Below are positions 16,596-19,832 of a stretch of DNA of 33,635 nt, piece after piece. Numbering within the stretch: position 1 is the first letter of the stretch; each line of letters begins with the position of its first letter. A program made the translations under genes and the position numbers. Below the pieces are notes generated by a model that searched no databases, was not told where the DNA came from, and saw nothing but the letters and a program-made list of their open reading frames with translations. The stretch is from Candidatus Methylomirabilis sp. GTDB taxonomy: Bacteria > Patescibacteriota > DYJS01. The DNA lies in contig DYJS01000002.1 in assembly GCA_020723005.1 (NCBI GenBank), forward strand, positions 25,675-59,309, written 5' to 3'.

Positions 16596-19500
16596 TTAAC
16601 TATCAAAACCAAATCTATTATTTTTTATCTTCCAAATAATCTCTTTTGTAAATTTCACATCAACCGAAATTTTCTTTTTTCCGGAAAGAAGTGAGAAATT
16701 TGCATGTCTCAATGCAGATTTTAAAATTTTTTTAATTGTTCTAAATCCATCAATATTTCCATATTCAGAAATTAGAAAATCAAAAACTTCATTTTGAACA
16801 ATGACTTTTTTTATATCTATAAAATTTTCAGAGATCAATTCTGGTAAAATATAATCTTTTGCAATTTTCATTTTTTCATCATCTGTATATGGGACAACTT
16901 CCAAAACTTCCATTCTGTCCAAAAGTGGAGCAGATATATTTTCAAGTTCATTTGCAGTTGCAACAAACCAACATTTTGAAATATCAACAGGAATCTCCAT
17001 AAAAAGATCCGAAAATTCAGAATTTTGTTCCTGATCTAAAATATCCAATAAAACACTTTCAGTTGCTTTTGAATTCATTGATTTTCCACCAATTTTATCA
17101 ATTTCATCAAGCAAAAAAACGATATTTTTCGTTTTATTTAAAATCATAGATTTTACAATCTTTCCGGTATGAGCTCCAACCCAACCTCTTCTTTGTCCAA
17201 CAAGAACAGATGCATCATCAAGTCCAGCTAAAGAGATCTTCTCAAAAGGAGATTCAATTGCTTTGGCTAAATTTTGTGCAAAAAAAGTTTTTCCTGTTCC
17301 GGGTGGTCCAGCAAGACAGATTATTGATGGTTGAATTTTTCCATTAGAAACTTTGATTGTTGCAATATCGTCTAAAATTTTTTGTTTTGGAACAGAAAAG
17401 CTATATTGTAAATTATCAAAAGTTTTTGCAATTTTTTTAATATCATAATCAATTAGATTTTTTGAATTCCAAGGAAAAGAGAGAAGTGTATCAAGATAAT
17501 TTCTCTCTGTCATTGTAGATCCAGAGCTAGATTCGCTTGAATCAATAATTTTTGCAATTCCTAAAAGATCTTTTTTGTATTTTTTTGGAATTGCACTTCC
17601 TTCAATTTGTGTTGTGTAGCTTCTCTTTTCGTTCTTATTTTCAGAGGAATTTAAAGTTTTTGAGAGTGCAAAAATTTTAAAATATAAATTTGATATTCTG
17701 TGCGAATAATATGAAATATTTTTAAAAGCACTACTTTCTCGGATTTTGCTTAATCTATCTTCAAGTTTTGCTTTAATTGATTCAAAAAGAGATTTTTCAT
17801 TTTCAAAATTTTTAAAATCTCCAGAATATAGGAATCCTTCTGAAAATATCTTTAAAACTTCAAGATAAAAAAATGAATTTGCAAAGTTTTCAGAGTAATT
17901 TTCGTTTATTTTTGAAAATTCAAGTTCTAAATTTTCAAAACTTTCGTAAAAAAATTTTTGATCATTTATAAAATCTGAAATTTTAACATTTTTTAAATTT
18001 TTTGGAACATAAAGATTAGAAACCGAGAATGGTCTAATTTTCTTTTTTATTTCATCTTTTTTTTCCAAAAAAGTTAAAGATATATTTTTTATACAAAAAT
18101 CCTCTTCAACATCTAAGAATTTTATCCATTTTTGGTATTCTAAAAAAGCAAATTCCCCAAACTGGAAGAGCGTGTTTATAATTTTTCTTGAATTTCTTAA
18201 AAGGATTTTAAAAGCAATTAGGTCTTGCTCTGAAAAATTTTCAGCAGATTTTATAATTTTTATACTTTTTTTGTAGTGTCTTAAAAAGGATATAGAGATT
18301 TTAAATTTTAAAAATTGTATCTCATCAAGATTTTTTGGATTTATATTTTTTTTCAAAACAAGTGAAGATGGAAGAATTTTTTGAAAATTTGTTCCAAAAA
18401 TCATTTCTGAAAAATTCTCTCCAGAATTTTTTAATTCATTTTTTAAAACCTCTTCTATATTTTCTAAAAATTCAAAAAGAATCCTTCCTAGCAATTTTTG
18501 AGATGAAAAATTTCCAAAATTTTCTAAAATCTCTTCAATTATATTTACACCACTTTCTGCAAGTTCAGTTCCCTTAATTTGAATAAAATCGTATGAAGAA
18601 CCAAAAATGTTTGCAACAGAATCAACTTCGGAAATTTCAGGATCTAAAATATGTGAGTCTATTATTGAAATAATTTTTTTTTGGATATAAAAAAATTGAT
18701 TCCAAGCGGAAATCAGCTTAACAATTGAAAAGTTTTCATCTTTTGTTGTTAAATTTTTTAAATTTTCAAATTCAGAGATCTCTATTTTTATATTTTTCTC
18801 AAATTTGAAAACATTAGAATAAAAAACTTTTTGGTTTATTAATTCTTTTTTTAAAAGCAAAAACTCCCCTTTTGAAGTTTTTGAACTGATTAGGTTTTGA
18901 AATTTTTTAGAAATTTCAAGTTCAAATTTTTTTAAATTTAAAAAGTTTAAACTTTGGTTTAAAAAATCAAAATCAATTTCAATTTTTTGAAAAACTTTTT
19001 TAAAAATTGGATTTTTGAGATCAGAAAAAAGGTTTTCTTTTTCAAAAAATGTTTGCAAAACTTTTGAGTTGTATTTTGAAAAATCTTCTTTTTCATCAAA
19101 AATTTCAAAATTTTTCAAAATTTCAAAACTTTTATTTTTTTGCAAAATTTTTCTTCTCTTTTCTTTTTTAAAAATTTCCTCAAAATTTTGAATAAAAAAT
19201 TTTAAGTTTTCAAAATCTTCCAATTTAGGAAATTCTCCAATTACAATTTCTGGAATTTCTAAATTTGTTGCAGATAAAATTTCACTCAAATTTTTTGCAA
19301 TATATTTTGTTGATTCTGCAAAAAGAATTCCTTCAAGAATCTGTTTGTTTTTTGCAAAATTTTCTAAAATATCTTTCCATATTCTAAAAACTGGTTGAAT
19401 AATTGAAGAGAAAAAATCATAATTTGAGAAATCAATTTTTAGTTTTTTTGAATGAAAAAGAATTCTAATTCCGAGATCAAAATTTTGAAGTTTTTTTGCG

Positions 19501-19832
19501 AGTTGAACGATTTGATTGGGAGACAATGTTTTTGTCTTTGTAAAATAAGAGAGTTCAAATTTTTCACCTTCAAATTTTCTAATCGTTTCAAAAGATTCAA
19601 AATTTTCAATTTTCCATTCTTTTGTAAAATTTTCAAAAAATTTTTTCTTTAATTTTTCGAACTCTTTTTTTGAAAATCCAGAAGTTTTTGAAAGTGTAAA
19701 AATTGATTTTTCAAGTTTTTTTAATTGAATTTTTTCATCATCAGTTAAATTGTTTTTTAATTTTATTTTTTGATAAAGTTCAAAATTTAAACTTAATTTT
19801 TTGTTTGAATTGTTTGGAATCGTGATCAGCAT
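16596..19832 (-). CDS. Large Lon-like AAA+ ATPase lacking the Lon proteolytic domain, with long unrecognised N-terminal region
   Basis: 1078 aa; RNYLDTLLSFPWNSKN, CLAGPPGTGKTFFAQNLAKAI (Walker A), VLVGQRRGWVGAHTGKIVKSM, NIVFLLDEIDKIGGKS (Walker B), DILDQEQNSEFSDLFMEIPVDISKCWFVATAN, LLDRMEVLEVVPYTDDEKMKIAKDYILPEL; stops after the lid region. Confidence 0.88.
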   Translation of the reverse strand: MLITIPNNSNKKLSLNFELYQKIKLKNNLTDDEKIQLKKLEKSIFTLSKTSGFSKKEFEKLKKKFFENFTKEWKIENFESFETIRKFEGEKFELSYFTKTKTLSPNQIVQLAKKLQNFDLGIRILFHSKKLKIDFSNYDFFSSIIQPVFRIWKDILENFAKNKQILEGILFAESTKYIAKNLSEILSATNLEIPEIVIGEFPKLEDFENLKFFIQNFEEIFKKEKRRKILQKNKSFEILKNFEIFDEKEDFSKYNSKVLQTFFEKENLFSDLKNPIFKKVFQKIEIDFDFLNQSLNFLNLKKFELEISKKFQNLISSKTSKGEFLLLKKELINQKVFYSNVFKFEKNIKIEISEFENLKNLTTKDENFSIVKLISAWNQFFYIQKKIISIIDSHILDPEISEVDSVANIFGSSYDFIQIKGTELAESGVNIIEEILENFGNFSSQKLLGRILFEFLENIEEVLKNELKNSGENFSEMIFGTNFQKILPSSLVLKKNINPKNLDEIQFLKFKISISFLRHYKKSIKIIKSAENFSEQDLIAFKILLRNSRKIINTLFQFGEFAFLEYQKWIKFLDVEEDFCIKNISLTFLEKKDEIKKKIRPFSVSNLYVPKNLKNVKISDFINDQKFFYESFENLELEFSKINENYSENFANSFFYLEVLKIFSEGFLYSGDFKNFENEKSLFESIKAKLEDRLSKIRESSAFKNISYYSHRISNLYFKIFALSKTLNSSENKNEKRSYTTQIEGSAIPKKYKKDLLGIAKIIDSSESSSGSTMTERNYLDTLLSFPWNSKNLIDYDIKKIAKTFDNLQYSFSVPKQKILDDIATIKVSNGKIQPSIICLAGPPGTGKTFFAQNLAKAIESPFEKISLAGLDDASVLVGQRRGWVGAHTGKIVKSMILNKTKNIVFLLDEIDKIGGKSMNSKATESVLLDILDQEQNSEFSDLFMEIPVDISKCWFVATANELENISAPLLDRMEVLEVVPYTDDEKMKIAKDYILPELISENFIDIKKVIVQNEVFDFLISEYGNIDGFRTIKKILKSALRHANFSLLSGKKKISVDVKFTKEIIWKIKNNRFGFDS

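Follow-up and report, generated by a model that had tools for sequence, protein, structure and literature searches.

According to a 2022 structural study, all Lons combine an ATPase and a protease in one chain (PMC9569914), and LONP1 has an ATP-dependent chaperone activity that is independent of its protease (PMC8163871). The gene P0001, which lies in the 33,635-nucleotide stretch of DNA analysed here (the window), raises the question of what a Lon ring might do when nothing is left behind it to cut the substrate. The first-pass annotation described the product as a giant Lon-type AAA+ ATPase without a protease domain, a description borne out by its match to TIGR00763, its relatives in the PDB, its structural model and the absence of Lon_C. 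The features of P0001, in window coordinates, are as follows.

16596–19832, minus strand: P0001, 1078-aa protease-less Lon-type AAA+ protein, whole gene from ATG to TAA
17673–19832, minus strand: N-terminal region, residues 1–720, no detectable relatives, mostly helical in a low-confidence prediction
16659–17657, minus strand: Lon linker and AAA+ module, residues 726–1058, identified by TIGR00763, PDB match and model
17286–17309, minus strand: Walker A GPPGTGKT, residues 842–849
17163–17198, minus strand: pore loop 1 GQRRGWVGAHTG, residues 879–890, with Trp884 where LonA has Tyr
17094–17123, minus strand: Walker B IVFLLDEIDK, residues 904–913
16908–16925, minus strand: arginine finger LLDRME, residues 970–975 (R973)
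16740–16748, minus strand: sensor 2 GFR, residues 1029–1031 (R1031)

The Lon AAA+ module of P0001

The reading frame of P0001 stays open for 1078 codons in DNA that is ~75% AT (probability ~3e-45 under an iid model), and the plus strand across 16596–19832 contains many stops. Genetic code 25 was ruled out, as TGA is a stop codon that closes 9 of the 29 genes in the window. The source assembly comprises 749 kb in 25 contigs and is 91% complete; the genome is the sole member of its class in our comparison set, and the genomes of its phylum-mates, presumably Patescibacteria, measure 0.4–2 Mb. A second copy of the P0001 architecture was not found among 380 genomes of the same phylum, and a search for syntenic relatives via RecG returned distant matches only.

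As first proposed, the last ~330 residues form a Lon ATPase module. Residues 726–1058 match TIGR00763 (278 bits, E 1.5e-82, against a full-Lon cut-off of 608) and Lon structures in the PDB, with 3m6a as the best relative (E 3e-57). Supporting this assignment, AlphaFold2 with 33 relatives modelled residues 740–1072 mostly at pLDDT >90, and comparison of the P0001 model with the Lon AAA+ domain 6n2i gave a TM-score of 0.89. P0001 is 34–39% identical to LonA (endopeptidase La, MEROPS S16; TIGR00763), with which it shares the AAA+ module with all ATPase residues, the entry motif RNYLDTLLSFPW and the fold; its identity to the short ATPase-only Lons described below is 30–35%.

The Walker A and B motifs, the arginine finger and the other motifs that had been listed are all present. 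P0001 retains K848, T849, D909, E910, N961, R973 and R1031, none of which varies across a comparison of 29 full-length Lons, 22 short Lons and 7 Lons of other origin. Pore loop 1 corresponds to GHRRTYVGAxPG of LonA, and its aromatic residue is kept, with Trp884 in place of Tyr. In LONP1, the substrate-gripping tyrosine is Y565, and such pore-loop aromatics drive translocation (PMC8163871). That the ATPase residues were kept despite changes in 31 of the 82 near-invariant LonA columns suggests selection on the motor, and P0001 appears ATPase-competent by sequence.

Absence of the protease and N domains

Past the FPW landmark, full-length Lons of the phylum have 469–510 residues and most of the short ones 282–310; P0001 has 290, indicating that its chain ends at the AAA+/protease boundary. 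The lid spans residues about 981–1072, leaving some 6 residues to the C-terminus, which corrects the earlier reading that P0001 runs 60–70 residues past the lid. Lon_C (PF05362) gave no match in P0001 and left no trace in a six-frame search of either the window or the 510-bp 3′ gap; the claim that neither P0001 nor the adjacent ORFs hold a protease domain thus stands, and a frameshifted protease domain was sought downstream and found in no frame of the gap or the window. In the whole assembly (six frames, stops read through), Lon_C matched YifB and RadA only, so that no stand-alone Lon protease partner was found there. No other Lon AAA+ module and no canonical Lon was found in the 749-kb assembly, 91% complete, the missing ~9% of which could hold one; nor was the Lon N domain (PF02190) detected in P0001 or in the rest of the assembly.

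We consider it highly improbable that the missing protease domain reflects a frameshift, a misjoin or some other assembly or sequencing artefact, a reading that is largely refuted. The 25 contigs and 91% completeness of the assembly, and frames broken in AT-rich runs nearby, would be compatible with such an artefact. However, the whole-assembly six-frame search returned no piece of Lon_C save those in YifB and RadA, the 3′ gap is empty of it, and an artefact would not replace the N domain as well.

Could the cutting instead be done by another protein? P0001 might be one half of a two-component protease, its ring feeding a separate peptidase such as ClpP. ClpP and FtsH are both encoded in the genome, the ClpP gene at C17:14092. 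Clp ATPases dock through an IGF/LGF tripeptide, which the FGF triplet at the C-terminus of P0001 (residues 1074–1076) faintly recalls, a resemblance only. However, in the alignment of the P0001 AAA+ module with LonA the only insert is 2 residues long, so that an internal docking loop of the ClpX IGF type is absent; clpP has an 839-aa AAA+ frame next to it that makes a more plausible ClpP partner; and the assembly encodes no stand-alone Lon protease domain besides those in YifB and RadA. On this evidence, we judge a two-component protease to be unlikely.

The other end of the protein also differs from LonA. P0001 has 788 residues before the PW landmark, compared with ~295–353 in LonA, and lacks the helical insert of LonA together with its N domain. 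Consistent with the first-pass view that the N-terminus carries no recognisable Lon N domain, PF02190 does not match it and a profile alignment does not begin until residue 717. Residues 1 to ~720 have no relatives in Pfam, NCBIfam, PADLOC, PHROGs, the PDB, phages, plasmids or viral contigs, and against the 380 phylum genomes they gave three chance-like matches of 13–15 bits. This lack of relatives is partly due to the comparison set containing no near relative of the organism. The N-terminus is predicted to be mostly helical with very low confidence (mean pLDDT 36 for the isolated region; values mostly <50 when the whole protein is modelled), and it contains no internal repeats. Its composition (K 14%, F 12%, E 11%) is only somewhat above that of the other window proteins (K 10%, F 9%, E 7%), which makes its richness in these residues largely a habit of the AT-rich genome. 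The annotation of a Lys/Glu/Phe-rich, helical N-terminus is therefore right as to enrichment, most of which is genomic AT bias, and its helicity remains a low-confidence prediction. No transmembrane segment was found in P0001 (maximum mean hydropathy 0.96 over 19 residues).

P0001 thus lacks two defining features of LonA, the Ser-Lys protease domain and the N domain, and ‘Lon protease’ is the wrong name for it. LonB, LonBA and LonC share a Lon-type AAA+ module with P0001 in broad terms, but all of them retain the protease domain (PMC9569914), and LonB has a membrane insert in its AAA+ module, whereas P0001 has no hydrophobic stretch.

P0001 might alternatively be a decaying lon gene that is nearing loss and has no function that matters. 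Its long terminal branch, at 3.08 changes per site, would be compatible with relaxed constraint as well, and this reading could further draw on the 31 changed columns and on broken genes nearby: the remnant of a fur-like gene immediately downstream, and a DNA methylase whose coding sequence is divided between two frames. Yet the frame is open throughout in 75% AT DNA with every catalytic residue intact, the protein ends at a domain boundary, the gene sits within a tight gene row, and decay does not produce a new 720-residue N-terminus. Decay is accordingly very unlikely in our estimation.

A separate clade of short ATPase-only Lons

The phylum search met ATPase-only Lon frames of ~340–450 aa beside full-length Lons. 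The 22 short Lons analysed (L039–L058, L064 and L065; for example, L040:5601–6698, minus strand) are monophyletic with support of 100/97, to the exclusion of P0001. They measure 342–433 aa, and most have 60–126 residues before the AAA+ entry. Every ATPase residue is kept and the chain ends at the lid, and the pore-loop-1 aromatic is not conserved. With a profile of 20 members, a short-clade match was found in about 102 of the 380 phylum genomes, counted from the result rows as at least 430 bits in a frame of 340–453 aa, full-length Lons scoring at most 384 bits. No dedicated NCBIfam family exists for the clade, to which only full Lon models match. Literature searches found no paper joining Lon protease with Patescibacteria or the candidate phyla radiation, and nothing relevant on protease-less Lon.

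The first-pass annotation had also asked whether homologues of P0001 keep a Ser-Lys domain, in which case its loss would be a local truncation. The full-length LonA homologues do keep it; the separate ATPase-only clade, however, is widespread in the phylum, so protease loss is not unique to P0001, and conservation of that clade indicates that a protease-less architecture is viable. The widespread short clade may in fact be the more tractable discovery of the two.

P0001 and the short clade share the Lon AAA+ module, the absence of the protease domain and an end at the lid. They differ in chain length, in the PNPase/RNase J neighbourhood of the short genes and in the pore aromatic, which P0001 keeps. 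P0001 scores E 1.2e-74 on the short-clade profile, on which members reach 1e-130 or better. The best tree places P0001 beside the short clade (95/81), but trees that join it to full-length Lons survive the AU test (p-AU 0.34–0.38). P0001 is a divergent third type and not a member of the short clade.

The genomic setting of the short clade bears on what such rings may act upon. In about half of the loci, the neighbourhood comprises IF2, S15, PNPase, a uracil-DNA-glycosylase-like gene, RNase J and FtsK, and the short genes are frequently flanked by PNPase on one side and RNase J on the other. By analogy with these genes, and in keeping with the position of P0001 in the best tree, P0001 might be a remodelling ATPase for particular nucleoprotein or RNA-processing complexes and not a general unfoldase. 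We regard this as rather unlikely. P0001 lies outside that neighbourhood: RNase J is at window positions 78–1805, 15 kb away and with no adjoining Lon, and there is no PNPase beside P0001. Moreover, the pore aromatic kept in P0001 is not conserved in the short clade, and the tree that sets them together is not decisive against a grouping with full-length Lons.

Proposed role and gene neighbourhood

Based on these findings, we propose, at about an even chance, that P0001 descends from Lon and works as a motor that translocates proteins without proteolysis, its N-terminal region being new. The AAA+ ring would form and hydrolyse ATP, and the aromatic pore loop (Trp884) would grip a polypeptide and pull it through the ring. 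As no protease chamber lies behind, the substrate would leave the ring in an unfolded, disaggregated or remodelled state. The 720-aa N-terminus, which replaces the β-structured N domain and the helical insert of LonA, may serve in substrate recognition or in tethering, perhaps at the membrane in conjunction with P0003 and P0002, which are encoded alongside it. The likeliest job of P0001 would then be to unfold, disaggregate or remodel proteins chosen by its N-terminal region. Of the remodelling motor that was originally suggested, the Lon ancestry, the ATPase competence as read from sequence, the missing protease and an N-terminus without detectable relatives have stood; we infer the unfolding or remodelling by P0001 and the recognition of substrates by its N-terminal 720 residues.

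The nearest precedent for such a role is the chaperone activity of LONP1. P0001 would resemble ClpX- and ClpB-type unfoldases and disaggregases in passing its substrate uncut through an ATP-powered ring, but these belong to other AAA+ clades, and the ClpX match to P0001 reaches just 36 bits. If the proposal is correct, a Lon ring can persist as a remodelling machine, as in P0001, in whose genome no other Lon was found, and in the short clade. ATPase-only Lons would then be natural constructs for studying Lon function without cutting, a question raised for the chaperone activity of LONP1 (PMC8163871). More tentatively, ATPase-only Lons could make up, within the phylum, a stable class of motors for protein remodelling that arose at least twice, as a short form linked with RNA-decay genes and as a giant form whose new 720-aa N-terminal domain replaced Lon proteolysis altogether in its lineage; we hold this broader view to be possible but doubtful.

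Two small membrane-protein genes precede P0001 on the same strand.

19840–20622, minus strand: P0002 (260 aa), with a single N-terminal transmembrane segment; its end lies 7 nt ahead of P0001
20619–21188, minus strand: P0003, 189 aa, two transmembrane segments, weak bacterial PH-domain match, 4-nt overlap with P0002

Given the 4-nt overlap between P0003 and P0002 and the 7 nt between P0002 and P0001, the three genes probably form one operon. The row is divergent from recG, and a promoter and terminator scan gave nothing above chance.

Several other features of the window were observed. A Fur-family-like remnant in three frames lies directly downstream of P0001 and tail to tail with it (about 16185–16590, plus strand); read by eye, it has a TAA at the position of a conserved Gly after a Cys, and its fragments have no Pfam match. 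A DNA methylase (PF01555; 4457–5284, plus strand) is divided between two adjacent ORFs in different frames that cover profile positions 1–79 and then 102–221, and is probably a frameshifted gene. Overlapping ORFs at 13645–14873 on the minus strand encode an unusual pair: the first product is a phage-holin-like membrane protein (PF05105) and the second has a HEPN domain (PF05168). Finally, a 378-aa lipoprotein-like β-propeller protein of the BNR/Ycf48 type is encoded at 14950–16086 on the plus strand.
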